A DNA stretch of 64,000 nt from Sinorhizobium meliloti (GTDB lineage Bacteria > Pseudomonadota > Alphaproteobacteria > Rhizobiales > Rhizobiaceae): positions 749,976 to 813,975 of the forward strand of contig NZ_CP141212.1 of the NCBI RefSeq assembly GCF_035610345.1. The letters run 5' to 3'. Shown one piece after another: positions 2,443 through 43,650 of this stretch. The position numbers and the translations under genes were made by a program. Positions within the stretch are counted from its first letter, which is position 1. Each line of letters opens with the position of its first letter. Under the pieces are notes generated by a model. That model saw only the letters and a program-made list of their open reading frames with translations, made no database searches and was not told the origin of the DNA.

Positions 2443-2739
2443 ATGCGCACGACCCACCACGCCTCCGGTTTCGGCCTCGTTGCGAGCAGGCAGTCGCCTG
2501 CAGCCCGCACAACAGGCATCATCGGCGTGCTGACGGCCGTCTGGCGCCTTTATCGAAACCGCTGCCAGATTGCCCGCCTGCAGGATCTCGACGATCGCCA
2601 GTTGCTGGACATGGGTTTGAAACGCGAAGACCTGCGCGAGGCGCTGACCTCGGCCTTCTTCGAAAACCCGGGCAACTACCTGACGCGCGCCTCACGCAAT
2701 CGGGCGAACCTCTTCTACAGGGGAGTGCGCCACGATTGA
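2443..2739 (+). CDS. DUF1127 domain-containing small protein
   Basis: 98-residue basic protein. The C-terminal half holds the DUF1127 signature (WRLYRNRCQIARLQDLDDRQLLDMGLKREDLREAL), an Arg-rich helix followed by a helical hairpin. Such proteins are widespread in alphaproteobacteria; some affect RNA metabolism or phosphate and carbon physiology, but the role of this one is unknown. The ATG at 2443 was chosen over an in-frame ATG at 2419 because AAAAGGAG sits eight bases upstream of it. It is longer than the usual 45-70-residue DUF1127 proteins, having about 35 unrelated N-terminal residues. An 8-bp hairpin (2380-2406) lies just before the ribosome site. The next structured region may be its 3' UTR or a separate RNA. 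Confidence 0.8.
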   Translation: MRTTHHASGFGLVASRQSPAARTTGIIGVLTAVWRLYRNRCQIARLQDLDDRQLLDMGLKREDLREALTSAFFENPGNYLTRASRNRANLFYRGVRHD

Positions 2740-2777
2740 CCCCTCATGGCGCGTCCCGCCGCCTCGGATGCGCCAGT

Positions 2778-2929
2778 GCGGCATGATCTGCGAAATCTTC
2801 GCCTCGCGCGGATCATGCCGCGAATTTCGGATCGTGCCGATGGCACGTCGTAAAAGTTCCCCGCAGGGTATGAGCCAATAGACCCTGCTCCTTGCCCGGT
2901 ACATGCCAAGACGTGTACCGGGCTTTTTT
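2778..2929 (+). ncRNA. Candidate structured RNA with four hairpins
   Basis: The 362-base gap between the DUF1127 gene and the convergent DUF937 gene holds four consecutive perfect stems on the + strand: 2778-2788 with 2811-2821 (11 bp), 2833-2838 with 2842-2847 (6 bp), 2863-2869 with 2882-2888 (7 bp) and 2895-2903 with 2914-2922 (9 bp), the last followed by CTTTTTT. The unpaired stretch between stems 3 and 4 contains CTCCTT, which could pair with ribosome binding sites. No gene lies downstream on this strand, so it is either a 3' UTR-derived RNA of the DUF1127 gene or an independent small RNA. It was not recognised as a named family. Bases 2930-3101 hold nothing evident. Confidence 0.45.
2895..2929 (+). 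terminator. Intrinsic terminator
   Basis: A 9-bp perfect stem (CCCGGTACA / TGTACCGGG) with a 10-base loop is followed at once by C and six T. This is a textbook rho-independent terminator, reading in the + direction, and marks the 3' end of whatever is transcribed from the DUF1127 gene or from the candidate RNA before it. Confidence 0.85.
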
Positions 2930-3101
2930 GCGCGTCCGATAAGGCGCGGCGCGGTGCTCGGACGCAGCTTTCCTCATCGAGTTTGTCGGCATGTTTCCAG
3001 TTTGGGAATAAATCATGGCGAAGGCCAGTCGGGCGCGTGCCCCGTCGCGCGGAGAGGGTTCGTCCTCGCATTAAACCCGAGGAGAGGGGCAATCCCGGCG
3101 G

Positions 3102-3935
3102 CTAGGCCTTGCCGCCCGAGCCGCCCTTGTAGCTCTCGAACAGGGCGTCGATGCTCTTCTGATATTCCTTCTGCATTTCCAGCCCGCTGTCGAAGAGACT
3201 GTTCATCGCCTGCGAAAACTGGGCGAAGGCCGGGTTATCGGCCGGCGCTTTCTGCGCCGTGTCGGCGCCCCGCATCATCTCCGCATAGGCCTTGAAGAAC
3301 GGATTGTCGGCGAAAAGATCGGCTGCTTTCGGCTTATCGCCGGCCTTGCCCGTTTCTCCCGGCTTGCCCATGCCGAAGAAGCCCTGCATCGCCTGGGTGA
3401 AAGGATTGTCGAAGGGGTTGGACTGCGGTTCGGGCTTCTTGGCGAGGCCTGTCGCCTCCATCCATTGCTGCATCAGCGTCATCATCGGATTGTCGGCGAG
3501 CCCACCGCTCATCTGCCCCGTGGTCTGTTTGAAGAGCCCGCCCATCAGCGTGCTCGCCATCACCGGCAGCATCTGCTTGTAGATCTCCTGACCGATCCCC
3601 GTCATCTGTGCCGCCTGCGCCGCAATCGCGCGCGACATTTCCTTCGAGCCGAAAAGCTGGCCGAGAATGCCGTTGCCATCTGCGACACCCTGGGGTGTGA
3701 ACGCCTGGCTCATGTCTTCGAAATACCGGGCGTAATTGCCGGTCGAGAGCGCCGTCAGCAGCGCGCCGAAGTCGTAGGGGTTCGTCGTATTGTACTTGAA
3801 GCCAGTGGAAAATGCGGGCATCAGCGCGGCCGTGGCTTTCGCCATCTGCTCCTGCGCGAGCCCGAATTGTTTCGCCATCAGTTCGATGGCGTGGCCGTTC
3901 TGCGCCTGCGCGAACATGTCAAAAAGCGGTGCCAT
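3102..3935 (-). CDS. DUF937 domain-containing protein
   Basis: 277-residue protein of unknown function. The N-terminal about 100 residues resemble the DUF937 family (LFDMFAQAQNGHAIELMAKQFGLAQEQ, then ALMPAFSTGFKYNTTNPYDFGALLTAL). The rest is rich in Met, Ala, Gly and Gln with short repeats of the type DNP.F.(A/Q)AM, and the C-terminus is a charged helix. No signal peptide or membrane helix is visible. The ATG at 3935 is preferred to the one at 3974 because GGGAGGA lies a few bases before it. It stands alone between the candidate RNA and gshA, in the same direction as gshA but about 140 bases downstream of it. Family assignment is from memory of rhizobial homologues. Confidence 0.7.
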   Translation of the reverse strand: MAPLFDMFAQAQNGHAIELMAKQFGLAQEQMAKATAALMPAFSTGFKYNTTNPYDFGALLTALSTGNYARYFEDMSQAFTPQGVADGNGILGQLFGSKEMSRAIAAQAAQMTGIGQEIYKQMLPVMASTLMGGLFKQTTGQMSGGLADNPMMTLMQQWMEATGLAKKPEPQSNPFDNPFTQAMQGFFGMGKPGETGKAGDKPKAADLFADNPFFKAYAEMMRGADTAQKAPADNPAFAQFSQAMNSLFDSGLEMQKEYQKSIDALFESYKGGSGGKA

Positions 3936-4072
3936 TGGCGTTCCTCCCGGGACGAGCGACGCATGTCCTTGCACTATAACGGGAATTGGAGGGCTGGAAA
4001 CCGCTTTTTCTGAAGCGCCGGATAGGGGGCGGAAGGAGCATGTCGGCTGCTCCGTCCGGGTAGAGGGTCCGC

Positions 4073-5446
4073 TCAGTATTGGTAGTCGGCGAAAACCGGT
4101 TCGACCGATTCGTTCCAGCGGCCGTGATAGAGCGAGAGCATGTCTTCCGCGAGCGTCGCCTTCTTCGCCAGCACTTCGTCAAGCGGTGCCAGGAACTGGC
4201 TTTCGTCGATGCCGTCGCCGTTCAGCCGGTTGCGGCGCTTGAGACCGCTGCGCGAAATGGCGAGAACCTCGCGCGCGACATCGAAAAGCGACCTCGACCG
4301 GAATTCGGCCGCGAGCGCCTTTGCGGGCACGGCATCTCTGAGTGCCAGGACCTCTTCGTAACCCCAATCGCGGGTCAATTCCTCGGCCGCCGACAGGGCC
4401 TCGTCATCGTAGAGCAGGCCGACCCAGAACGCCGGCAGCGCGCAGATCCGCCGCCAGGGGCCGCCGTCTGCCCCGCGCATTTCCAGAAAACGCTTCAGAC
4501 GGACGTCGGGAAAGAGAGTCGACAGATGATTGGTCCAGTCGCCCATCGTCGGCTGCCACTCGGCGATTTCGCCCTTCAGCGCCCCGTTCATGAACTGACG
4601 GAAGGTGACATGGGTGCAGTCATGGTAATGCCCGTCGCGGACGACGAAATACATGGGGACGTCGAGCGCCCATTCCACATAGTCGCTGAAGCCGAAGTCC
4701 GGCTTGAAGGCCGTCGGCAACAGGCCCGAGCGCCGGTTGTCGGTATCGCGCCAGATGTCGCCCCGCCAGGAAAGCAGCCCGTTCGGCTTGCCTTCGGTGA
4801 AGGGGGAGCTCGCAAAGAGGGCGGTGGCGAGCGGCTGCAGCTTCAGGGAGACCTGCATCTTCCGCCGCATGTCCTCTTCCGAGGAGAAGTCGAGGTTAAC
4901 CTGGATCGTGCAGGTGCGATACATCATGTCGAGGCCCTTGCTGCCCACCTTGGGCATGTAGCGCGTCATGATGGCGTAGCGCGACTTCGGCATGCGCGGC
5001 GTCTCGGCGAAGTTCCATTTCGGACTGCCGCCGATGCCGAGGAAACGGATGCCGAGCGGTTCGGCGATTTCCCGAAGCACGGCAAGGTGCTGGTTGGATT
5101 CCTTGCAGGTCTGATGGAGGTTCTCGAGCGGTGCGCCGGAAAGCTCGAATTGCCCGCCCGGCTCGAGCGAAATCGCTCCATTGCCCGAGGGCTCGGCAAG
5201 GCCGATCACATTCCCCTCGTCCACGATCGGCTCCCAGCCGTTCCTTTCGGCCATACCGTTCAGGAGCGCCTGGATGCTGGCCTCGCCGAAATAGGGCACC
5301 GGGCTGTTGTCCGCCTTGAAGAAGGCGAACTTCTCATGTTCGGTGCCGATCCGGAACTTTTCCTTCGGCTTCGATCCGGATGCCAGATAGGCGGTCAGTT
5401 CAGCGACAGAGGTAACCGGCGTCTGGTCGGTAGTGTCTCGGGCCAT
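4073..5446 (-). CDS. gshA: Glutamate-cysteine ligase (plant/alphaproteobacterial type)
   Basis: First enzyme of glutathione synthesis: ATP-dependent ligation of glutamate and cysteine to gamma-glutamylcysteine. The 457-residue length fits the rhizobial enzyme. Recognisable segments are KFRIGTEHEKFAF near the N-terminus, EPGGQFELSGAPLENLHQTC, the MPKSRYAIMTRYMPKVG block and RTCTIQVNLDFSSE, all typical of the plant-type GCL family rather than E. coli GshA. The ATG at 5446 (MARDTTDQ) is chosen over 5533, since homologues begin there and an AAGAAG motif precedes it. It is followed downstream by the DUF937 gene and preceded by rsmE in the same direction. Glutathione is required for normal symbiosis in S. 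meliloti (established knowledge). Confidence 0.95.
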   Translation of the reverse strand: MARDTTDQTPVTSVAELTAYLASGSKPKEKFRIGTEHEKFAFFKADNSPVPYFGEASIQALLNGMAERNGWEPIVDEGNVIGLAEPSGNGAISLEPGGQFELSGAPLENLHQTCKESNQHLAVLREIAEPLGIRFLGIGGSPKWNFAETPRMPKSRYAIMTRYMPKVGSKGLDMMYRTCTIQVNLDFSSEEDMRRKMQVSLKLQPLATALFASSPFTEGKPNGLLSWRGDIWRDTDNRRSGLLPTAFKPDFGFSDYVEWALDVPMYFVVRDGHYHDCTHVTFRQFMNGALKGEIAEWQPTMGDWTNHLSTLFPDVRLKRFLEMRGADGGPWRRICALPAFWVGLLYDDEALSAAEELTRDWGYEEVLALRDAVPAKALAAEFRSRSLFDVAREVLAISRSGLKRRNRLNGDGIDESQFLAPLDEVLAKKATLAEDMLSLYHGRWNESVEPVFADYQY

Positions 5447-8799: not shown

Positions 8800-9591
8800 T
8801 CAGGAACCCGCGCGATCACGCTGCTGCAGGCGCAGGCGGGCAATGCGCACCCACTCTCCGCTGCGCTCGGCCTCGCGCGCTGCCGTGGCGACGAAATCGA
8901 TGTGGCTCTGCGCGGCCGCCTTGGCGGTTTGCGGATCGCCGACCATGATCGCCGCATAGATCGCCTCGTGCTGCGCGAGAAGCTGGTCGCGTGCGCCGGG
9001 CGCGTCGAAGACGGAATTGCGGTGGAAGAAGATGCCTTGGGTCAGCAGCCTGTAACAGGCCCTGAGGGTGTGAAGCAGGATGATATTATGAGCGCTTTCG
9101 CCGATGGCATTGTGCAGTTCGATATCGGCTTCGAGTTCTTCGGCGAAGTTGCCGCTCTCGTGTGCGGCGCGCATGCGTTTGATGACGCGGGTAAGAATGT
9201 CGCGGTCGAAGTCGGTTGCGCGGGTCGCCGCCAGTTCCGCCGTCAAGCCTTCGAGTTCGCGCCGGTATTCGAGATAGTCCTGGGTCGCCTTGTGGTGGCG
9301 TCCGATGAGCTCGATCAAGGGTTTGGAAAAGATCTGGCCGACCACGTCGGCGACGAACGTGCCGCCGCCATGCCGGCTTTCGACGAGACCGCGCGCCTCC
9401 AACTCCTTGAGCGCCTCACGCAGGATCGGCCGCGACACGTCGAAGCGCCTGGAGAGTTCTCGCTCGCCCGGCAAGCGATCGCCGTCGCGTAATACGCCCT
9501 CGAGGATCAGAAGCTCGATCTGCTGCACCACCTCGTCGGCCGTCCGGCCATGGCTGATGCGGGCATAAAGGTCGTCCTGGTCTTCGGTCAC
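8800..9591 (-). CDS. GntR-family (FadR subfamily) regulator, probable glycolate-operon regulator
   Basis: 263-residue regulator with an N-terminal GntR winged helix (VVQQIELLILEGVLRDGDRLPGERELSRRFDVSRPILREALKELEARGLV) and an all-helical FCD ligand domain with a probable metal site (EADIELHNAI and a later QHEAIYAAI). FadR-subfamily members such as GlcC, LldR and PdhR respond to glycolate, lactate or pyruvate. GTG at 9591 is preceded by GGGAG; a GTG at 9627 is the alternative. An AGTGG-N13-CCACT palindrome lies upstream at 9677-9699, and the same architecture occurs in front of glcD, so autoregulation and control of glcDEF are inferred. Whether it represses or activates is not visible. Confidence 0.85.
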   Translation of the reverse strand: MTEDQDDLYARISHGRTADEVVQQIELLILEGVLRDGDRLPGERELSRRFDVSRPILREALKELEARGLVESRHGGGTFVADVVGQIFSKPLIELIGRHHKATQDYLEYRRELEGLTAELAATRATDFDRDILTRVIKRMRAAHESGNFAEELEADIELHNAIGESAHNIILLHTLRACYRLLTQGIFFHRNSVFDAPGARDQLLAQHEAIYAAIMVGDPQTAKAAAQSHIDFVATAAREAERSGEWVRIARLRLQQRDRAGS

Positions 9592-9676
9592 GGCTACGTC
9601 TCCCGGAGCGCCAAGGGCTTTGTGCACAGGTGTCGCCGGCCTCCGCTTCCATTCGGCAATCTAACAGGACCCATCA

Positions 9677-9699
9677 AGTGGTCAAATTGATTGTCCACT
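9677..9699. promoter_or_regulatory. Candidate GntR operator (AGTGG-N13-CCACT)
   Basis: Arms AGTGGTCAA and TTGTCCACT flank a 5-base centre; they are complementary at all but one position. The palindrome sits between the divergent gntR and DUF3422 genes. An identical outer architecture occurs at 12127-12149 upstream of glcD. TGGT/ACCA-type half-sites are typical for FadR-subfamily proteins (established knowledge). Confidence 0.65.
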
Positions 9700-9805
9700 C
9701 TGCCGGTGTTGACAAAGATCGAACTGCGTCAAAGCGCCCTGTTCTTTTTACCTTATCCGTTGATAAGAAGGTGATGATGAACGCGTGAGGGGGAAGAAGC
9801 GCTTC

Positions 9806-11074
9806 ATGCCAAAGGGCAGTTTTGCATTTCCGGTGGCGCCCATGCGCGCCCAGGCGCTCGGCGAGGTCCATTCACGGCCCTATGCACTGGTGACGACTCC
9901 GCGCGTCATCTTTCAACTCGCCTTCATGACGGAGGGCGGGTCGATCGTCGATCACGCCGTGATGTCCGAGTTGTCGCGCTCGCGCGGCATTGCCCCGCCC
10001 GGTCGCGACGCCAATCACCACGCGATCCCCTGGGGACAGGGAACGCTGCGCTGGGAGCGGCACACGGAATTCTCCACCTATTTCTGGGACGCGCCCGCGC
10101 CGGAAAGCTTCGGCGGCGAGGTGCCGATCCATCCGTTCGGCGACGGTTTTTCGCCCCCGGGCTCGCTGATTTCCGGAGTTCGTCTGGAAATTCGTCCCGA
10201 TACGCCGGAGACCCGCGAGGCGATCGCGGCTTTCGATCCCACGAGCCTCTGTTACAGCGAAACCAAGAATGGCCAGGCGGTGCTCCTGACCGACTTTCGC
10301 CAGAACGGCGACGGGCTGACCCAGGTGCTGGTCATCGATCGCGGCATGACGGAGGCGGGAACGGGCGCCCTGGTGCAGCGCCTGCTCGACATCGAGACCT
10401 ACCGCACGCTTGCCATTCTCGGCCTGCCGCTTGCACAGTCGCTGTCGCCGGAGATCCGCCGCACCGAGGACGGCCTGACGGCGGTGACGCAGCGCATGAA
10501 GGAAAACGTCCGCGAGGAGGCTGACGAGATGCTGGCGGAGATCACCCGCCTTGCCGCCGATCTCGAAGCGGGTGCCGCCCTCAGCCTCTATCGCTTCGGC
10601 GCCAGCCGCGCCTATTACGGCATTGTCCAGGAACGCATCCGCACGCTTTCCGAGACGCCGGTGCCCGGTTACGAGACCATCGGCACCTTCCTCGAGCGCA
10701 GGCTGGCGCCGGCAATGCGCACCTGTCAGTCGGTCGAGGAGCGGCAGGCGAATCTCTCGCGCAAGCTCGCCCGCGCTACGGCTCTCCTGAGAAGCTGGAT
10801 CGACGTCGAACTGGAACGGCAGAACAGCGCCCTGTTGAATTCGATGGATCGCCGCGCCAAGCTGCAATTGCGCCTGCAACAGACCGTCGAAGGATTGTCG
10901 GTGGCGGCGATTTCCTATTATGTCGTCGGGCTCTTCGGCTACCTCGCCAAGGCCGTCAGTCATGAAATACCCGTTGATCCCGGTCTCCTGACGGGCCTCG
11001 CCGTTCCCTTCGCGGTCGCCGGGGTCTGGCTGGTGGTGCGGCGCATTCGCCGCCATCACGACGAGCACGGATAG
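9806..11074 (+). CDS. DUF3422 family membrane-anchored protein
   Basis: 422-residue protein of the DUF3422 family, function unknown. The long N-terminal part is soluble (ALGEVHSRPYALVTTPRVIFQLAFMTEGG near the start), the middle is helical with coiled-coil tendency (ARATALLRSWIDVELERQNSALLNSMDRRAKLQLRLQQTVEGLSV), and the C-terminus has two hydrophobic helices (about VAAISYYVVGLFGYLAKAV and LLTGLAVPFAVAGVWLVV). The ATG at 9806 is preferred over a GTG at 9785 because a GAGGGGGAAGAAG purine run precedes it. The gene is divergent from gntR across the operator and convergent to a LysR gene, with only one base between the stops. Its place next to the glycolate regulator may be functional or coincidental. 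Confidence 0.8.
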   Translation: MPKGSFAFPVAPMRAQALGEVHSRPYALVTTPRVIFQLAFMTEGGSIVDHAVMSELSRSRGIAPPGRDANHHAIPWGQGTLRWERHTEFSTYFWDAPAPESFGGEVPIHPFGDGFSPPGSLISGVRLEIRPDTPETREAIAAFDPTSLCYSETKNGQAVLLTDFRQNGDGLTQVLVIDRGMTEAGTGALVQRLLDIETYRTLAILGLPLAQSLSPEIRRTEDGLTAVTQRMKENVREEADEMLAEITRLAADLEAGAALSLYRFGASRAYYGIVQERIRTLSETPVPGYETIGTFLERRLAPAMRTCQSVEERQANLSRKLARATALLRSWIDVELERQNSALLNSMDRRAKLQLRLQQTVEGLSVAAISYYVVGLFGYLAKAVSHEIPVDPGLLTGLAVPFAVAGVWLVVRRIRRHHDEHG

Positions 11075-11075
11075 A

Positions 11076-11972
11076 CTATTGCTCCCAGTAGGGCACCGGG
11101 CCGTAGAGTGCGGCGAGATAGTCGATGAACTGCCTGACCTTGGCCGGCAGGAATTGCCGGCTTGGATAGACCGCCGAAAGCGTCAGCTTGTGCGATCCTT
11201 CCCATTGCGGCAGCACCTGAACCAGGCGCCCCTCCCGAAGTTCCCTGCCGATGTCCCAGGTGGACCGCAGGGCGATGCCGGCACCGGCAATCACCGCTTC
11301 GCGGATGATTTCCGACGAGTTGGTGACGAGCGGTCCCTCCGGCCGGTAGGAGAGGCTGCCGTCGGGGCCCTCCAGCTTCCAGTTGTCGTTGTTGTGCGCC
11401 GGCAGACAGATGTGATGCGCGAGTTCGCCGATCTCCGTCGGCGCTCCATGACGGGCGACATAGCTCGGCGCCGCGCAGAGAAGCCGGCGCACCGGCGCGA
11501 GCTTGCGGGCGACGAGGCTCGAATCGCTGAGTTCGCCTATTCGGATGGCGAGGTCGAAACCTTCTGCGACGATGTCGGTGAAATCGTCGGTCAGTACGAT
11601 GTGCAGCTTCAGGTCGGGATGGTCCTTCATGAAACCGGTCAGATGCGGTGCGATGTGCATGCGGCCGAAGGAGGTCGGCGCGGAAATGCGCAGAGTCCCC
11701 TGGACCTGGGACGAGCGGCCCGAAGCATAGGCCTCCGCTTCCTCCAGACCGGCGAGAATGCCGAGAACGCGGTCATAGAAACCCTGGCCGGCCTCCGTCA
11801 GCGAAATCTGCCGAGTCGTGCGCTGCAGGAGCCGCGTGCCCAGCCTGTCTTCGAGCCGCTTGATACGTTTGGAAATCACGGCTGCGGAAAAACCGAGCGC
11901 GCGTCCCGCCGCCGACATGCTGCCGGTCGACACCACCCGCGCAAAAATTTCGAGATCGCCTAGATTCGTCAT
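11076..11972 (-). CDS. LysR-family transcriptional regulator
   Basis: 298-residue LysR regulator. The DNA-binding domain is at the N-terminus (LGDLEIFARVVSTGSMSAAGRALGFSAAVISKRIKRLEDRLGTRLLQRTTRQISLTEAG), which is the subgroup that resembles DmlR/AaeR-type regulators. The effector domain starts near residue 90 (LRISAPTSFGRMHIAPHL). ATG at 11972 has AGGA upstream; a TTG just before it is an alternative. It is divergent from glcD with about 200 bases between them, so a role in glycolate or a related acid is possible but not demonstrated. The intergenic region also holds the GntR-type palindrome and a short RIME-like remnant near 12049. Confidence 0.87.
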   Translation of the reverse strand: MTNLGDLEIFARVVSTGSMSAAGRALGFSAAVISKRIKRLEDRLGTRLLQRTTRQISLTEAGQGFYDRVLGILAGLEEAEAYASGRSSQVQGTLRISAPTSFGRMHIAPHLTGFMKDHPDLKLHIVLTDDFTDIVAEGFDLAIRIGELSDSSLVARKLAPVRRLLCAAPSYVARHGAPTEIGELAHHICLPAHNNDNWKLEGPDGSLSYRPEGPLVTNSSEIIREAVIAGAGIALRSTWDIGRELREGRLVQVLPQWEGSHKLTLSAVYPSRQFLPAKVRQFIDYLAALYGPVPYWEQ

Positions 11973-12126
11973 CAATCCTGATCATTGTTTCCAAAGGCGA
12001 AAAGATCATTAACATTTGCCGGGTGTCCGTCCAGCCCTGTAAAAGGTTAGAGCGGGATGCGATGAGGTCATTGCTTGTGTATGTCCTCGTCTCAAGTCCG
12101 CCGCACACTTTTGGGCGACATGCATT

Positions 12127-12149
12127 AGTGGTAAGCAAAAAATACCACT
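12127..12149. promoter_or_regulatory. Candidate GntR operator in the glcD promoter
   Basis: AGTGGTA and TACCACT form perfect 7-bp arms around a 9-base A-rich centre, 22 bases before the glcD start codon. The outer pentamers and their 13-base spacing equal those of the site at 9677-9699 upstream of gntR. A site this close to the start would overlap the transcription start or the early leader, which fits repression, but this is inferred. Confidence 0.65.
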
Positions 12150-12171
12150 TTGCTGTGAATGGGAGGCGCTC

Positions 12172-13611
12172 ATGCCGGAGACGATCGGCTTTCTTAAGCC
12201 AAGGCAGGCCGTCCTCGACCGTCGGCGGGAAATCGTCGCCGATCTTGCCGATCTGTTGCCGGAAGGCGGCCTCATCAGCGACGAGCGCGGCCTCAAGCCC
12301 TTCGAGACGGATGCGTTTATCGCTTATCGGCGGATGCCGCTCGCGGTCGTCCTTCCTCAGACGACGGAGCAGGTGGCCGCGGTGCTCAAATATTGCAGCC
12401 GCTACGGCATTCCGATCGTGCCGCGGGGCGCCGGCACCTCGCTCTCCGGCGGCGCCATTCCTCAGGAGGACGCGATCGTCGTCGGTCTGTCGAAGATGTC
12501 GCGCATCCTCGATATCGATCTGTTCAACCGCACGGCGACGGTTCAGGCGGGCGTGACCAATCTCAATATTTCCGATGCAGTTTCGGCCGACGGCTTCTTC
12601 TATGCGCCGGATCCGAGTTCGCAGCTCGCCTGCACCATAGGCGGGAACATCGGGATGAATTCCGGCGGCGCGCACTGTCTGAAGTACGGGGTTACGACCA
12701 ACAACCTTCTGGGTGTCAAGATGGTGCTTTTCGACGGCACCGTGATCGAACTCGGCGGCAAGGCGCTCGACGCGCCGGGATACGACCTGCTTGGGCTCGT
12801 CTGCGGTTCGGAGGGGCAGCTCGGCATCATCACGGAAGCGACGGTGCGGCTGATTGCGAAGCCCGAGGGAGCGCGGCCCGTCCTCTTCGGGTTTGCCTCC
12901 TCCGAGTCCGCCGGCAGCTGCGTCGCCGATATCATCGGATCGGGCATCATCCCCGTCGCAATCGAATTCATGGACAAGCCGGCGATCGAGATCTGCGAGG
13001 CTTTCGCCCAGGCCGGCTATCCCCTCGACGTCGAAGCATTGCTGATCGTCGAAGTGGAAGGTTCCGAGGCCGAAATGGATGCCATGCTCGCCGGCATCAT
13101 CGAGATCGCCCGCCGCCACGGCGTGATGACGATCAAGGAATCGCAATCGGCTCTGGAAGCGGCACTGATCTGGAAGGGGCGTAAGTCGGCCTTCGGCGCA
13201 ACCGGCCGGATTGCCGATTATATCTGCATGGACGGAACGGTGCCGCTGAGCCAGCTCTCTCATGTGTTGAGGCGGACCGGCGAGATCGTCGCCGGCTACG
13301 GCCTGCGCGTTGCGAATGTCTTCCATGCCGGCGACGGCAACATGCATCCGCTGATCCTCTATAACATCAATGATCCGGAGGAAGCTGCCCGCGCGGAAGC
13401 TGCCGGCAACGACATACTGAAGCTCTGTGTCGAGGCGGGCGGCTGCCTGACCGGGGAACACGGCGTCGGCATCGAGAAACGCGATCTGATGCTGCACCAG
13501 TACAGCAGGGCCGATCTCGGTCAGCAGATGGCGGCGCGCGCCGCCTTCGATCCGCAATGGCTTATGAACCCGTCGAAGGTTTTTCCGCTCGAAGGGCGGC
13601 CCGCGGCATGA
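12172..13611 (+). CDS. glcD: Glycolate oxidase FAD subunit GlcD
   Basis: FAD-binding catalytic subunit of the membrane-associated glycolate oxidase, which oxidises glycolate to glyoxylate. The 479-residue protein has the FAD_binding_4 (VAO/PCMH) domain in the first half, with the FAD loop at VPRGAGTSLSGGAIP and IGGNIGMNSGGAHCLKYGVT, and the FAD-oxidase C domain in the second half, including VFHAGDGNMHPLI and LTGEHGVGIEKRDLM. Length and order match GlcD throughout. ATG 12172 is preceded by GGGAGG. It is first in the operon; its TGA overlaps the glcE start as ATGA, so translation is probably coupled. Confidence 0.96.
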   Translation: MPETIGFLKPRQAVLDRRREIVADLADLLPEGGLISDERGLKPFETDAFIAYRRMPLAVVLPQTTEQVAAVLKYCSRYGIPIVPRGAGTSLSGGAIPQEDAIVVGLSKMSRILDIDLFNRTATVQAGVTNLNISDAVSADGFFYAPDPSSQLACTIGGNIGMNSGGAHCLKYGVTTNNLLGVKMVLFDGTVIELGGKALDAPGYDLLGLVCGSEGQLGIITEATVRLIAKPEGARPVLFGFASSESAGSCVADIIGSGIIPVAIEFMDKPAIEICEAFAQAGYPLDVEALLIVEVEGSEAEMDAMLAGIIEIARRHGVMTIKESQSALEAALIWKGRKSAFGATGRIADYICMDGTVPLSQLSHVLRRTGEIVAGYGLRVANVFHAGDGNMHPLILYNINDPEEAARAEAAGNDILKLCVEAGGCLTGEHGVGIEKRDLMLHQYSRADLGQQMAARAAFDPQWLMNPSKVFPLEGRPAA

Positions 13612-20754: not shown

Positions 20755-20796
20755 AAATCAAGCAAGCGCGGCCGGTGGCCCGAAACTCAACAGGCC

Positions 20797-20841
20797 TTAG
20801 AGCGGAATGAGGAAAACTGTGCGCCGCCCGCGTGCCGCTCT
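20797..20841. repeat. RIME-like element
   Basis: The sequence AGAGCGGAATGAGGAAAACT followed by GCGCCGCCCGCGTGCCGCTC resembles the RIME family of rhizobial intergenic mosaic elements (recognised from memory). It abuts the CAGGCCTTAG end of the long palindromic repeat, exactly as at 40360-40408. Confidence 0.55.
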
Positions 20842-38773: not shown

Positions 38774-39334
38774 GTGCGCATAGTCGGTGGAGAATTTCGC
38801 GGCCGCACGCTGGCCGCGCCGAAATCGGACGATATCCGTCCGACCACGGACCGCACGCGCGAGAGCCTTTTTAACATCCTGAGCCACGCTTATCCGGAGG
38901 CGCTTGACGGAACGCGCGTTCTCGATCTTTTCGCGGGCACGGGGGCCGTCGGGCTCGAGGCGCTGTCGCGCGGCTGCCGGCAGGCTCTCTTCGTGGAGCA
39001 GGGGGTCGAGGGACGCGGGCTGCTGCGGATCAACATCGAAGCGCTCGGCCTTCAGGGGCGGGCCAAGATCTTTCGCCGCGACGCGACGGATCTCGGACCG
39101 GTCGGGACGATGGAGCCGTTTCATCTGGTGTTCGCAGATCCGCCCTATGGCAGGGGTCTCGGCGAACGCGCTCTGGCCGCGGCCGCCCGCGGCGGTTGGC
39201 TCGTTCCGGGTGCCCTTGCAATCCTGGAGGAGCGCGCGGACGTCCGGCCGCAGTTCTCCGAAAGTTTCGAATCGGTCGACGAACGCGCCTTCGGCGATAC
39301 GCTCATGCATTTTCTGCGTTTCCGAGGCGCCTGA
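38774..39334 (+). CDS. rsmD: 16S rRNA (guanine-966-N2)-methyltransferase RsmD
   Basis: SAM-dependent methyltransferase modifying G966 of 16S rRNA. The 186-residue protein begins MRIVGGEFRGRTLAAP (GTG start), contains RPTTDRTRESLFNIL, the SAM site VLDLFAGTGAVGLEALSRG and the catalytic FADPPYGRG (NPPY-type motif). It lies six bases after rluB, so two rRNA-modification enzymes share one transcript. A patatin gene follows after 87 bases. Confidence 0.95.
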   Translation: MRIVGGEFRGRTLAAPKSDDIRPTTDRTRESLFNILSHAYPEALDGTRVLDLFAGTGAVGLEALSRGCRQALFVEQGVEGRGLLRINIEALGLQGRAKIFRRDATDLGPVGTMEPFHLVFADPPYGRGLGERALAAAARGGWLVPGALAILEERADVRPQFSESFESVDERAFGDTLMHFLRFRGA

Positions 39335-39421
39335 GACCGGCGCAAAGTCGGTTGGAGCTGTTCAGATTCCGCGTGATCTCGGCCTGCCCCTCGTGCAGGA
39401 TGGCCGATGACGGAGGTGGCG

Positions 39422-40306
39422 ATGGAGCAGAACCTGTCCACGATATGCAAAGCCGCGGGTAGCGAGGGGGAGCCGACCATCGCGCTTGCCCTCGGCGGCG
39501 GCGGCGCGCGCGGACTTGCCCACATCCATGTCATCGAGGCGCTTGATGAGATGGGGCTTCGGCCGGCGGTCGTCGCCGGTTCGTCGATCGGCGCTCTCAT
39601 GGGCGCGGGCGTGGCCGCCGGCATGAGCGGGAAGGAAATCCGTGAACACGTGCTTTCGACCGTCGGCCGGCGTGGGGAGGTTCTCAACCGCCTATGGCGA
39701 TTGAGGCCGACCAGTCTTGCCGAGGCTGTGACGAGCGGCTTCCGCGTCGGCCAGTTCAATATAGAGCGTGTGCTGAAGGCCTTCCTGCCTGAGGCGGTGC
39801 CTGTCCGCTTCTCCGATCTGGCCATCCCCCTGAAAATCATCGTCACCGACTATTACGGGCAGACGGAGCGGGTCTGCGAAAGCGGGGACCTCTACAAGGC
39901 GCTCGCTGCCTCCTGTGCCCTGCCGGCGGTATTCATGCCGGTGAAGATCGACGGCCGCGTGATGATCGACGGCGGCATCTATAATCCGATCCCCTTCGAT
40001 CACCTGCGCGGACTGGCGGATATCGTCGTCGCCGTCGATGTCGTCGGCGGGCCGGATGGCGACGGGGAGACGATCCCGAGCCGTATCGACAGCCTGTTCG
40101 GCGCGACCCAGTTGATGATGCAGTCGATCATCACGATGAAGATGCAGGCCGGCGCACCGGATATTCTCCTGCGTCCCGATGTCGGGCGGTTCCGCGTCCT
40201 GGATTTCCTGCGGGCGCAGGAATTGCTTACCGCCACCAGCGGGACCAAGGACGAGGTGAAGCGCGCGCTGGCAGAGCGTATCGATCGGTGGAAGAAGGGG
40301 ATATAG
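39422..40306 (+). CDS. Patatin-like phospholipase family protein
   Basis: 294-residue acyl hydrolase of the patatin/RssA type. The oxyanion loop is LALGGGGARGLAHI, the nucleophile elbow is GSSIG, and the catalytic Asp lies in MIDGGIYNPIPFD. These are the two residues of the Ser-Asp dyad. It has no signal peptide, so it likely acts at the inner face of the membrane. ATG 39422 is chosen over 39407 because GGAGG lies just upstream. The substrate is unknown. It is followed by a repeat-filled interval. Confidence 0.9.
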   Translation: MEQNLSTICKAAGSEGEPTIALALGGGGARGLAHIHVIEALDEMGLRPAVVAGSSIGALMGAGVAAGMSGKEIREHVLSTVGRRGEVLNRLWRLRPTSLAEAVTSGFRVGQFNIERVLKAFLPEAVPVRFSDLAIPLKIIVTDYYGQTERVCESGDLYKALAASCALPAVFMPVKIDGRVMIDGGIYNPIPFDHLRGLADIVVAVDVVGGPDGDGETIPSRIDSLFGATQLMMQSIITMKMQAGAPDILLRPDVGRFRVLDFLRAQELLTATSGTKDEVKRALAERIDRWKKGI

Positions 40307-40359
40307 GCGACCGAGGGGCAAATGATCTGTTCAACCGGCTTGAAAACATCCCCGGTCGG

Positions 40360-40408
40360 AGACGCGGGATGCGGGCGGAAAACCGCACGCGCTTTTCTCC
40401 CGCTCTAA
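40360..40408. repeat. RIME-like element
   Basis: GCGGGATGCGGGCGGAAAACCGC followed by CGCTTTTCTCCCGCTC: an imperfect palindrome of RIME type (recognised from memory). It abuts the left terminal repeat of the 246-base element, the same arrangement, inverted, as at 20797-20841. Confidence 0.6.
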
Positions 40409-40650
40409 GGCCTGTCGAGATTCGGGCCACCCGCTGCGGCTTGTTTGATTTCCTCATTCCTGTGCTTGTCACAGGCATCCAGCCAGACCAAGTCCTTGGG
40501 CTGGAAAGGCTCTTCCGCGCCGCGGACGCGGCGCTGCTGGATCTCTGTGACAAGCACAGATCGGCTACGATCAAAGGAAACAAGCTTCAACGCCATTATC
40601 CATGTCGCAGCAGCCGTCATAAACTCAAAATGAATCTCAACAGGCCTTAG
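40405..40650 (+). repeat. 246-base element with 19-bp terminal inverted repeats
   Basis: CTAAGGCCTGTCGAGATTC at 40405-40423 and GAATCTCAACAGGCCTTAG at 40632-40650 are complementary with a single mismatch. The interior holds the palindromic core (arms 40452-40483 and about 40536-40560) also found inverted at 20639-20754. No coding capacity and no clear target-site duplication is seen. The structure resembles a MITE, though recombination among repeats could also explain it. Confidence 0.65.
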
Positions 40651-40666
40651 CACAGGTGTTAACAGG

Positions 40667-40836
40667 CCCTGATATCTCTCCGCCTTTTCCAGCGTCTCGT
40701 CGGCAAGATCCGGCAGAGCATCGTCAGGCTGAGTGACTTCACGCTCCGGCTTTACCAGCGGTTGCGGCCGGACAGGCTTTGAATGTAGCATGTCGCGGCC
40801 GGCGGTGACCCTCTGCTTCCTGCAGGACCAACTGCG
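40667..40836 (-). pseudogene. Duplicated 3' end of the kefB-like gene
   Basis: About 170 bases repeat the sequence at 41665-41835 in direct orientation, 998 bases away, with a handful of substitutions and a short indel. In translation both read ...PVRPxPLVKPxREVTQPDDALPDLADETLEKAE. In the intact gene TGA follows; here the stop is changed to AGA, so the frame runs on into repeat sequence. The 5' end of the fragment fades out just before the vapC stop. It has no start and is a non-functional remnant. Confidence 0.85.
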
Positions 40837-40842
40837 CGAGCC

Positions 40843-41229
40843 TTACGCCGCCGGGATATCGGTTTGCGAGAAATCACTTCCCTTGAACAGGAGCGGTTCA
40901 TTTGTCAGAAAGGCTAGGGCGTAGGAAAAACAATCACCGAAATTCAAACCGGCCGGATGGCGGCCTTTGCCGAAACGGCGCCAGGCACGGCGGGCCTGGT
41001 CCATATGCTCGGCGGTTACCGCAACAATCTCCACGTTTGCCTTGTAAAGCCAAAGGTCAAGTTCCGCGCCGGCAGCTTCGCCTAACCGGGTTTCGATTAC
41101 CATGGCTGCTTCCAGAGCGGTTGCCGCGGAGATGAGCCGAACCGGGTCGTGCGCGATTTTCTCGCGGAAACTTCCGGCCTCCTGTTCATTGAAGGCAATC
41201 GCGGCAATGGCGGATGTGTCGATTACCAT
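40843..41229 (-). CDS. vapC: VapC-type PIN-domain toxin
   Basis: 128-residue PIN-domain ribonuclease, the toxin of a type II toxin-antitoxin pair. Acidic active-site residues expected for PIN nucleases are visible: Asp4 (MVIDTSAIAAI), Glu40 (SAATALEAAMVIE) and Asp99 (LNFGDCFSYALA), with a further Asp119. The start overlaps the antitoxin stop (TAATG), the usual arrangement. VapC toxins typically cut initiator tRNA or rRNA (established for the family), but the target of this one is unknown. The gene lies between two copies of the kefB-like 3' end, which suggests recent acquisition. Confidence 0.92.
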   Translation of the reverse strand: MVIDTSAIAAIAFNEQEAGSFREKIAHDPVRLISAATALEAAMVIETRLGEAAGAELDLWLYKANVEIVAVTAEHMDQARRAWRRFGKGRHPAGLNFGDCFSYALAFLTNEPLLFKGSDFSQTDIPAA

Positions 41230-41483
41230 TATGAGGGGAGTCCATCCTCGTCATAACCGATGATGTCATCGGAGCTGCGACCGTCGAGGACGGGCATGGC
41301 ATTCCAGCGGCGTTGAATGGCCTCCAGATCCTCCAGAAGGGCCGCGCGCCGGGCAGCGGTGTCGGTTCGGCGCAATCGTTCTTCGAGGGCACGCTTGGTG
41401 GCCAGCGTGATGGATTCCCCGGTCCGCCGGGCAAGTGTGCGGGCAAGCTGCTCGGTTTCGATATCCTTGATGCTCAGCGCCAT
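41229..41483 (-). CDS. vapB: VapB-type antitoxin (Rv0623-like)
   Basis: 84-residue antitoxin. The N-terminal MALSIKDIETEQLARTLARRTGESITLATKRALEERL is a ribbon-helix-helix-type DNA-binding segment of the Rv0623/PSK family, and the acidic C-terminus (SSDDIIGYDEDGLP) would wrap the toxin. AGGAAG lies seven bases before ATG 41483. It precedes vapC and overlaps it by one base, so both are translated from one message. Two GGTAG repeats 15 bases apart lie upstream and could form part of an autoregulatory site. Confidence 0.9.
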   Translation of the reverse strand: MALSIKDIETEQLARTLARRTGESITLATKRALEERLRRTDTAARRAALLEDLEAIQRRWNAMPVLDGRSSDDIIGYDEDGLPS

Positions 41484-41664
41484 CAGATGCTTCCTGGTTC
41501 CTACCGTTCAATATTCTACCATGATGGCGCATTGATATCCAGAACGCACGTCATATTGCGGCAGTAGGGCCGGTCAGAGTCCCTGGAGGTCATTTCGGCC
41601 CTGACAGAAGGGCCTTTCTCGTAGATCCCCGATGTTTTAGTCGGGTCGACCCACAACATGAACG

Positions 41665-41835
41665 CCCTGATATCACTCCGCCTTTTCCAGCGTCTCGTCG
41701 GCAAGATCCGGCAGAGCATCGTCAGGCTGAGTGACTTCACGCTTCGGCTTTACCAGCGGTTCCGGCCGGACGGGCCTTGAATGCAGCATGTCGCGGCCGG
41801 CGGTGATGCCCTCCGCTTCCTGGAGCACCAGCCTT
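41665..41835 (-). repeat. kefB-like gene end that is repeated at 40667-40836
   Basis: This is the copy inside the intact gene. The similarity starts at GCCCTGATATC just outside the gene and reaches about 160 bases into its coding region. Between the two copies lie vapBC and about 190 bases of other sequence. Confidence 0.85.
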
Positions 41836-43499
41836 GCCTCGTCGCGGCGGCGTATATCGTCCATGATGCCAATGGCTTCGTCGCCGTTCACGCCGAGCGC
41901 CTCGAGCGTCTTTCGGCCGAAAAGCAGACCAGACTCGAACGTCTCGCGCAATTCGTAGTCGACACCCCGTGCGCGCAGTTCCAGCGTGTGCAGGCGGTCG
42001 TAGGAGCGCGCGAAGATGCGGGCATTCGGGTATTCGGCATGGACGAGATCGATGATCTTGTCCGTGACCTCCTTCTTCTGCGTGCACACGGCGACAATCT
42101 TCGCCTTCTCTATTCCGGCCGCTCGCAAGACGTCGAGGCGTGTGCCGTCGCCGAAATAGATGCGGAAGCCGAATGTGGCCGCCTGACGCACGCGCGCCGC
42201 GGAATGGTCGATGATCGTCACATCGCGGCCGCCGGCGAGAAGGATCTGCGAAGCGATCTGGGCGAAGCGGGAAAAACCGATCATCAGCACGTCGGCGCCG
42301 GCGCCCTCGAAATCCTCTTCCATTTCCTCGGCCAGTTCGTCCTGCTTGTGCATCAGCCGCCTGGAGAGCATCGCTGCCACGGGTGTCAACGCCATGGAGA
42401 GCGTGACGATGGCGACGAGCAGGGAGGACGTGGCTTGCGAGAAGACGCCGGCCGCGGCGGCTGCGGTGAAGAGCACGAAGCCGAATTCGCCGCCCTGCGG
42501 CAGAAGCAGGCCGATGCGCACGGCGTCGTTGTGGCGTGAGCCGGCGGCCCGGCACAGTCCGTAAAGGACGAGGCTCTTTACCAGCATCAGCACGGGAACG
42601 GCGATGATGATGCTCAGCAGGTTCTCTGCCACCACTTGGAGCTCGAGCGACAGGCCGACCGCCATGAAGAAAAGCGCCTGGAGGATGCCGCGGAATGGCT
42701 CGATGTCGGCCTCCAGCTCGTGACGATAGGACGATTCCGCCAGCAACACCCCTGCAAGGAACGCGCCCATCGCCATGGAAAGGCCGGCGAGTTGCATCAT
42801 CGTCGCCGCGCCCATGACGACGAGAAGCGCGGCTGCGATCATGACGTCGCGCGCGCCGGTGCGCGCGATCACCTGAAAGAGCGGATTGAGAAGATAGCGA
42901 CCGGCGGCGAAAAGCGCGGCCACGGCGGCGATGGCGATCGCGAAGTCCTCGATCGGCGTGGTCGTATCCTCCGGTGCCTGCGCCGCCATCAGCGGAATGA
43001 TCGCAAGCAGAGGCACGATCGCCAGGTCCTGGAGCAGGAGAATGGAGAAGGCGCGCTGGCCATAGCGCGTGTTGGTATCGTTGTTCTCCTCCAGGATCTG
43101 CATGGCGAAGGCCGTGGAGGATAGCGCCAGGCCGAAGCCGGCGACGACGCTGCCGGCGCCTCCGAGAAGACCGCTGAACGCGATCAGGAACGAAAGAACG
43201 GCCCCGGTGATCACGACCTGTGCCGTACCGAGACCGAAGATGTCGCGCCGCATCTGCCACAGTCGCGACGGTTTCAGCTCGAGGCCGATGATGAACAGCA
43301 GGAAGACGACGCCGAGTTCCGAGACATGCAGAATCTCTTCGCCTTCCGTGATTTGCTGGGCGACGGGACCGATCAGGATGCCGGCGGCGAGGTAACCAAG
43401 GATGGTGCCGAGCCCGAGACGCTTGAACAGCGGCGCTGCGATCACGGCGCCGGCAAGCAGCATCAGCGCCTGAGAATAGATTATCGTTGTCGTTTCCAT
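41673..43499 (-). CDS. Monovalent cation:proton antiporter-2 (KefB/YbaL type)
   Basis: 608-residue CPA2 antiporter with an N-terminal domain of about twelve hydrophobic segments (residues about 5-385, for example LGLGTILGYLAAGILIGPVAQ and FLLFIIGLELKPSRLWQMRRDIFG) and a C-terminal TrkA-N/RCK domain (from about 405: ADVLMIGFSRFAQIASQILLAGGRDVTIIDHS...FRIYFGDGTRLDVLRAAGI). In E. coli KefB/KefC such RCK domains bind glutathione and NAD; here that is only an analogy. The tail after about residue 530 is hydrophilic, and its coding end is duplicated beside vapC. ATG 43499 is chosen since the first helix begins soon after (METTTIIYSQALML). Confidence 0.9.
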   Translation of the reverse strand: METTTIIYSQALMLLAGAVIAAPLFKRLGLGTILGYLAAGILIGPVAQQITEGEEILHVSELGVVFLLFIIGLELKPSRLWQMRRDIFGLGTAQVVITGAVLSFLIAFSGLLGGAGSVVAGFGLALSSTAFAMQILEENNDTNTRYGQRAFSILLLQDLAIVPLLAIIPLMAAQAPEDTTTPIEDFAIAIAAVAALFAAGRYLLNPLFQVIARTGARDVMIAAALLVVMGAATMMQLAGLSMAMGAFLAGVLLAESSYRHELEADIEPFRGILQALFFMAVGLSLELQVVAENLLSIIIAVPVLMLVKSLVLYGLCRAAGSRHNDAVRIGLLLPQGGEFGFVLFTAAAAAGVFSQATSSLLVAIVTLSMALTPVAAMLSRRLMHKQDELAEEMEEDFEGAGADVLMIGFSRFAQIASQILLAGGRDVTIIDHSAARVRQAATFGFRIYFGDGTRLDVLRAAGIEKAKIVAVCTQKKEVTDKIIDLVHAEYPNARIFARSYDRLHTLELRARGVDYELRETFESGLLFGRKTLEALGVNGDEAIGIMDDIRRRDEARLVLQEAEGITAGRDMLHSRPVRPEPLVKPKREVTQPDDALPDLADETLEKAE

Positions 43500-43650
43500 G
43501 CTCGGTGCTTCCGCTATAACGGCCGGGGGACCCGTGGGAGAGGGCGTATTCCGCCGCATATCATTTTGCTGCTGGGGCGGGAATCACGATGATGCCCTTG
43601 ATGCATGCTTCAGTGCACAATAAATGGGACAGGAATGAAAGGCCAAAATC

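Follow-up and report, generated by a model that had tools for sequence, protein, structure and literature searches.

A VapBC30-type toxin-antitoxin module between direct repeats of a kefB-like gene end in Sinorhizobium meliloti, with empty, decayed and remnant alleles among its relatives

The 64,000-nucleotide stretch of Sinorhizobium meliloti DNA analysed here (the window) contains an intact VapBC30-type toxin-antitoxin (TA) module lying between two directly repeated copies of the 3′ end of a kefB-like antiporter gene. The features of the locus, in order of position, are as follows.

39407..40306, + strand: patatin-like phospholipase gene, convergent with the kefB-like gene on the far side of the insertion site (ORF and family search)
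40406..40649, no strand: MITE-like repetitive element whose 18-bp inverted ends match TAAGGCCTGTYGAGATTC; it flanks the outer repeat copy here and the single gene end in strain C101
40666..40830, − strand: outer (far) repeat copy, a non-coding relic
40831..40842, no strand: junction at which vapC is fused to the kefB end, common to the window strain, 4H41, USDA1021 and Ak57
40843..41229, − strand: vapC toxin gene, 128 aa, PIN domain, VapC30-like (PIN, PF01850, 6e-17)
41229..41483, − strand: vapB antitoxin gene, 84 aa, Rv0623/VapB30-like (PSK_trans_fac, PF07704, 4.3e-28)
41484..41663, no strand: spacer from the gene end to vapB, comprising the vapB upstream region and the remnant of a repetitive insertion
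41664..41830, − strand: inner (near) repeat copy, serving as the functional 3′ end of the antiporter gene; it runs from approximately codon 577 to 9 bp beyond the stop
41673..43559, − strand: kefB-like CPA2 monovalent cation:proton antiporter gene, intact (ORF, Na_H_Exchanger and TrkA_N domains, and the names of close relatives)

The vapB gene is upstream of vapC with a 1-bp overlap at position 41229, and both are on the antiporter strand. The two proteins resemble VapBC30 of M. tuberculosis (4xgq) over almost their full lengths, with VapC matching VapC30 at residues 1–126 of 128 (2e-42) and VapB matching VapB30 almost from end to end (1.4e-19). A 1-nt gene overlap is also described for S. meliloti VapBC10 (PMC10945364), although the pair in the window is set apart by description and is probably not vapBC10, its toxin having 128 aa and that of VapBC10 being reported as 16.2 kDa (PMC10945364). 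Between the window strain and USDA1021 there are one non-synonymous and 12 synonymous differences in vapC (three and six, respectively, in vapB), and with so few non-synonymous changes vapC is under constraint. The module thus looks to be conserved as a TA system, with a predicted toxin activity.

Several other features of the region are noted here. The patatin-like phospholipase (39407–40306) has a weak match to PADLOC effector phospholipase models (7.6e-09), and the other three proteins scanned against defence-system models (the vapB, vapC and kefB products) gave no match. A search of positions 39300–42400 for known RNAs returned a single sub-threshold match and nothing else. The inverted ends of the MITE-like element (40406–40649) begin with TA, and a further copy of the end is present at 20782–20799; when the region 40310–42400 was used as a query there were 35 matches in the window genome, and those listed beyond the locus itself fall at about 40354–40560. 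The spacer contains one promoter-like site (41541–41513), a count not above chance expectation, and the repetitive insertion of which it holds a remnant is about 450 bp long in strain 4H41.

The repeat copies at 40666–40830 and 41664–41830 are about 166 bp long with their starts 998 bp apart, as proposed in an initial annotation of this DNA, which had also described loss of the stop codon and drift in the outer copy. Both parts of that description hold. The copies share 96% ungapped identity over 143 bp, or 93.4% over 167 aligned columns including a 2-bp gap, and the homology with the kefB end begins 12 bp past the vapC stop. The antiporter stop (TGA) is at 41673–41675 in the inner copy, and the equivalent positions of the outer copy (40675–40677) read TCT on the + strand, such that the stop is changed to AGA on the gene strand. 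Six substitutions of the outer copy, including the lost stop, are private to the window strain among the alleles read; a 2-bp deletion near the vapC side is common to the window strain and 4H41, and the outer copy of 4H41 has retained its stop. The repeat is not due to chance. In a background sample of 464 kb (the window and 20 samples of 20 kb each from the same genome) no second non-tandem direct repeat with copies within 4 kb reaches both 140 bp and 90% identity, with the nearest competitor, a 138-bp pair of 94.9% identity within a tandem array (L114), falling just under the cut-off.

The interval between kefB and the patatin gene was covered in 29 genus relatives and in 26 named loci, two sets that overlap in part (genus genomes G019, G024 and G030 are outside the 29-locus count). 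Only 4H41 (G014) and USDA 6670 (G022) of the 29 relatives carry vapB. The initial annotation had set aside an old tandem duplication for the case that all relatives have the same arrangement, and 27 of the 29 are without vapB. In 26 of the 29 the aligned protein ends are separated by 13–278 bp, a few of these gaps being overestimated and some alignments ending at residue 611. Searching the plasmid collection with kefB alone gave six records (K101, C101, M103, USDA1021, Ak57 and, at 76%, Shinella). We note that the chromosomal kefB locus is found here in records labelled as plasmids (USDA1021 psymB, Ak57 pSymB, pK101a, pC101a and pM103a; L059, L060, L125–L127), and that either these labels are probably wrong or the replicons are fused.

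The alleles differ in how much of the insertion they have. The window strain has the full module and the full outer copy. In 4H41 a stretch of 352 bp is missing, which takes in almost the whole of vapC and the very end of vapB; the outer copy has an intact stop, and the inner copy is followed by the repetitive stretch of about 450 bp, native flank included. In this draft sequence, which has an N inside the repeat, the duplicated stretch is longer than in the window strain (274 + 202 bp, repetitive flank included). USDA1021 and Ak57 have kept vapBC and have the same junction as the window strain, and of the outer copy they have only about 38 bp beside vapC; in Ak57 the matches to vapC, to kefB and to rsmD are each spread over more than one frame, a pattern suggestive of sequencing error. 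An apparent palindromic repeat is present between the patatin gene and the kefB stub of USDA1021 (L059, 3830–4000), and none was seen there in the window strain. The USDA 6670 allele consists of a frameshifted vapB and 29 vapC codons joined to the patatin gene end, without an outer copy. In C101, K101 and M103, which are about 1% from the window strain, there is a single gene end and the module is absent, and a further empty site with 73 bp between the last codons is present in genus genome G003. Because identity to C101 over 11.8 kb is at least 99.97% for both K101 and M103, these three strains are counted as one observation. A second match to the gene end was seen among the relatives' loci in 4H41 only, which is also the one locus with a direct repeat of the gene end among the 26 named kefB loci.

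The window is collinear with C101 over all 64 kb in two aligned pieces that overlap by 167 bp at the repeat, and the missing module and one repeat copy are the sole difference at this scale. This is the empty site with one gene end and no vapBC that the initial annotation predicted, and it also matches its expectation that the module can be lost precisely. The insert is present or absent between close strains, is flanked by direct repeats, and has a repeat-exact empty allele, and the locus thus has the properties of a small variable segment flanked by direct repeats. Over 424 kb compared between the window strain and C101 (406 kb aligned) there are four indels of at least 200 bp net: the insert at the kefB locus, which is non-tandem and has a long repeat; an indel of 257 bp net with an overlap of 145 bp, which may reflect tandem copy number; and two without overlap. 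Direct-repeat overlap is absent from the inserts relative to C101 at G000:C1:964510 and 1088234 (1,091 bp and 15.7 kb net).

Other insertions are found at the same place. The remaining one of the 29 relatives, a contig of S. medicae USDA1037 (G013; L034, 5860–7341), has a different insert of 1,486 bp between kefB and the patatin gene, perhaps an outer-membrane protein gene as judged by reading, and in five Rhizobium loci (L050, L052, L054–L056) the two genes are 1–2.5 kb apart. The gene-end repeat is absent from all of these, and the kefB–patatin site is one that tolerates insertions.

Divergence was compared between the module and its surroundings. Three neighbouring genes differ by 1.2% (38/3181) between the window strain and 4H41, and by 5.2% between the window strain and USDA1021. 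Against 4H41, vapB has 7/252 differences (2.8%; p=0.04 versus the 38/3181 in the three core genes) and the vapB-side spacer has 22/136 (16%), compared with 16/334 (4.8%) in the non-coding flank (p=1e-4), with 19 gap columns in the spacer alignment. Against USDA1021, vapBC differs by 3.3% versus the 5.2% of the neighbouring genes (p=0.054). Because the module and spacer divergence departs from that of the flanks, the module alleles probably either predate the separation of the flanks or have passed from one strain to another, and the value with USDA1021, slightly below that of the genes, makes a horizontal exchange of the module possible.

The initial annotation suggested that divergence of the two copies might reveal which of them is foreign, and on these alignments neither looks so. 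The two copies of 4H41 are identical to each other and to the single end of C101, save for about 40 bp on the vapC side and one N. The inner copy in the window strain and 4H41 is of the C101 type, without the USDA1021 substitutions, and the outer copies of both strains resemble the C101 gene end as far as the 2-bp indel, beyond which, beside vapC, they are USDA1021-like. The six private substitutions of the window strain's outer copy are drift of a relic, with no foreign end imported. In 4H41 the inner copy also stands ahead of the repetitive flank, and part of the present repeat may therefore stem from later gene conversion. The module or a remnant of it is present in five of the six S. meliloti complex alleles read (window strain, 4H41, USDA1021, Ak57 and USDA 6670), the exception being the C101 clone, and the simplest explanation is therefore that C101 has lost it. 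By parsimony, a precise loss through the repeat is probable. C101 has no marker private to an outer copy, and either a crossover between the repeats or replacement from an empty-site strain would produce its allele.

The explanation we favour, with a probability of about 0.6, is an ancient capture of a TA fragment by illegitimate or homology-assisted recombination in which the gene end was duplicated, with subsequent decay, allele exchange, and loss in C101. An ancestor of the S. meliloti complex would have captured a VapBC30-type fragment between two convergent genes that stand close together, and the 3′ end of vapC would have been joined to approximately codon 577 of the antiporter gene, leaving the last 166 bp or so of the gene on either side of the module. 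Of these, the inner copy would complete the antiporter gene and the outer copy would be a displaced or duplicated relic. Illegitimate or homology-facilitated recombination by the host, with no dedicated recombinase, most likely carried this out, the incoming fragment being anchored by gene-end homology and its other end joined without homology. Later changes would include point drift of the outer copy with loss of its stop in the window lineage, deletion of nearly all of vapC in 4H41, shortening of the outer copy to about 38 bp in USDA1021 and Ak57, and near-complete deletion in USDA 6670, with the single gene end of the C101 clone left by a crossover across the direct repeat or through replacement by an empty allele.

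The anatomy, the common junction in several lineages, the empty alleles and the differing decay are observed directly; the mechanism of capture we infer for an event that is old and whose ends are eroded. The junctions at the kefB locus are compatible with homology-facilitated illegitimate recombination, and none of the 29 homologous vapBC loci offers a donor with a kefB end within its 1.5-kb flanks. That the insertion at the gene's 3′ end left the host gene whole, as the initial annotation had it, is supported. Its comparison of the module to a mobile unit of the integrative type is not supported: no integrase is recognised between the repeats, no inverted repeat of at least 20 bp is present at the edges of the interval, the outer end has decayed in lineage-specific ways, and neither copy is foreign in appearance. 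The insertion is a well documented case of ordinary gain and loss and is not a new kind of mobile element.

An integrase- or transposon-driven unit was considered and rejected from the anatomy, with a duplication of about 166 bp, no transposase among the genes of the locus by ORF and family search, and no inverted repeats of at least 20 bp at the module boundaries. A degenerate version, in which an e14-type element integrated at the 3′ end by means of a recombinase, restored the gene end and has since lost its integrase, has the same topology, e14 leaving a 163-bp duplicated icd end (PMC6379469), and a duplication that keeps the gene whole is indeed what is found at the kefB locus. We consider it very improbable, however. 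No site-specific recombinase is recognised between the repeats, where the ORFs searched are vapB and vapC and the leftover sequence could not accommodate an integrase gene; the outer end decays freely; the gene-end repeat is seen in 4H41 alone among the relatives' kefB loci; and the other inserts at the site (L034; L050, L052, L054–L056) are without it.

Two further histories reach the same arrangement by other orders of events. One is that the gene end was duplicated in tandem earlier and a TA fragment was inserted later at the duplication junction. The longer duplicated stretch of 4H41, with its repetitive flank included, is what a tandem duplication would give; however, a duplication without module remnants is present in no locus read, the only relative with a gene-end repeat being 4H41, two events at one spot are required, and at a second locus described below (L099) the duplication and the TA segment are seen only together. 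We regard this order as unlikely. The other is that the original insert had only a short gene stub past vapC, as in USDA1021, and that the full outer copy arose by a crossover within the 38-bp stub in an empty-site recipient, which kept its own gene end and flank. In its favour, such a stub is present in USDA1021 and Ak57, the outer copies of the window strain and 4H41 change from C101-like to USDA1021-like sequence at the 2-bp indel, and the divergence of the module and its flanks is unequal. Against it, one more event without explanation is required to give an internal fragment of 38 bp whose two ends are unrelated, it would be simpler for USDA1021 to have lost part of a longer copy, and the inner copy in the window strain and 4H41 is of the C101 type and lacks the USDA1021 substitutions. 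This order, too, we think improbable.

A second locus of the window genome, L099 (G000:C2:1454392; region 1451300–1457700, 2693–4331), is the one among 14 other PIN loci of this genome that has the same architecture. Its order is a DUF982 gene, a MazE-type antitoxin gene, a PIN toxin gene and a second DUF982 copy without a start, and the repeat is 303 bp long at 96.7% identity. In 57 of the 60 plasmid records listed (124 matched) the span is 1.2–1.3 kb rather than 2.6 kb, with no room for the insert; three of the 57 (1021, WSM419 and USDA1021) were inspected closely. 4H41 has a single DUF982 copy at this site, and among the records listed the insert is present only in the window strain, K101, C101 and M103. 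Matches of 81–82% to the inserted segment are found in plasmids of Rhizobium sp. RCAM05350 and Pararhizobium qamdonense, where they extend from the vapC stop to a point ahead of the antitoxin gene, and beyond this there is a weak match (67–73%) inside a TetR gene annotated adjacent in those plasmids. The DUF982 copies have no DNA match within the 3-kb flanks of these plasmid loci, and the segment therefore appears to be foreign DNA without evident defined ends that arrived along with a duplication of the target gene. On sequence comparison L099 reads as a younger, analogous event, and its direction is clear.

Besides that of the window, we tested 94 PIN loci chosen among the matches listed, 14 from the same genome and 80 from other genomes. 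Repeats span the PIN gene in three: L142 and L150 (50–57 bp, 84–88%) and L099; a further 39 repeat pairs do not span it. Three PIN loci (L136–L138, at about 9300–13150) have a direct repeat of about 220 bp and 85% identity, one copy beginning where the PIN gene ends and the other lying 3.4 kb away, the gene itself not being spanned. None of the 80 loci in other genomes has a comparable long repeat (two have those of 50–57 bp). Long direct repeats around PIN modules are thus no general rule, and that generalization is rejected; one long case in 94 is compatible with chance and does not prove enrichment. Among 30 loci from the VapC search, including that of the window, with 1.5-kb flanks, a repeat spans the module in the window only. 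A broader proposal is that TA modules can become established in chromosomes without a recombinase, by way of insertions in which 150–300 bp from the end of the adjacent gene are duplicated, so that the gene is spared and the module gains a handle for host recombination by which it can be lost or its alleles re-exchanged between strains; the kefB/VapBC30-like and DUF982/MazE-PIN loci would be instances, and we put this forward as a doubtful generalization. Searches of the openly licensed literature listed no publication recognised as describing the kefB/vapBC locus or the insertion of TA modules along with a duplicated gene end.

The value of the locus is that one TA insertion is seen as a clean natural series of empty, full, toxin-deleted, truncated and remnant alleles, with flanks that are in part about 99% identical, such that a chromosomal TA module can be followed base by base from its gain through decay to loss. 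It also illustrates how a gene-end duplication can mimic the signature of a mobile element while probably being a by-product of recombination.

The kefB/vapBC locus belongs to an already known class of repeat-flanked insertions. Among the closest parallels are bacterial microdiversity loci, which similarly have small strain-variable inserts with direct repeats at their base and empty alleles elsewhere; 10–18% of the variable segments are reported to be repeat-flanked, and homology-assisted illegitimate recombination has been proposed (PMC2884548). The repeats described there are mostly shorter than 30 bp, whereas that at the kefB locus is 166 bp and is the coding end of a gene. Homology-facilitated illegitimate recombination has also been proposed for Vibrio T6SS effector-immunity arrays and for Rhs, where downstream parts are orphaned (PMC5361080). 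As in those arrays, the cargo at the kefB locus would have entered with an anchor in a gene, leaving as an orphan what used to lie downstream; the locus differs from the arrays as described in that the cargo is a vapBC pair and the two ends are nearly identical, and the gene product is therefore unchanged. Prophage e14 shares with the kefB locus a duplicated gene end and a gene left whole, but it is a site-specific prophage integration (PMC6379469), whereas the kefB locus has neither a recombinase nor defined ends.
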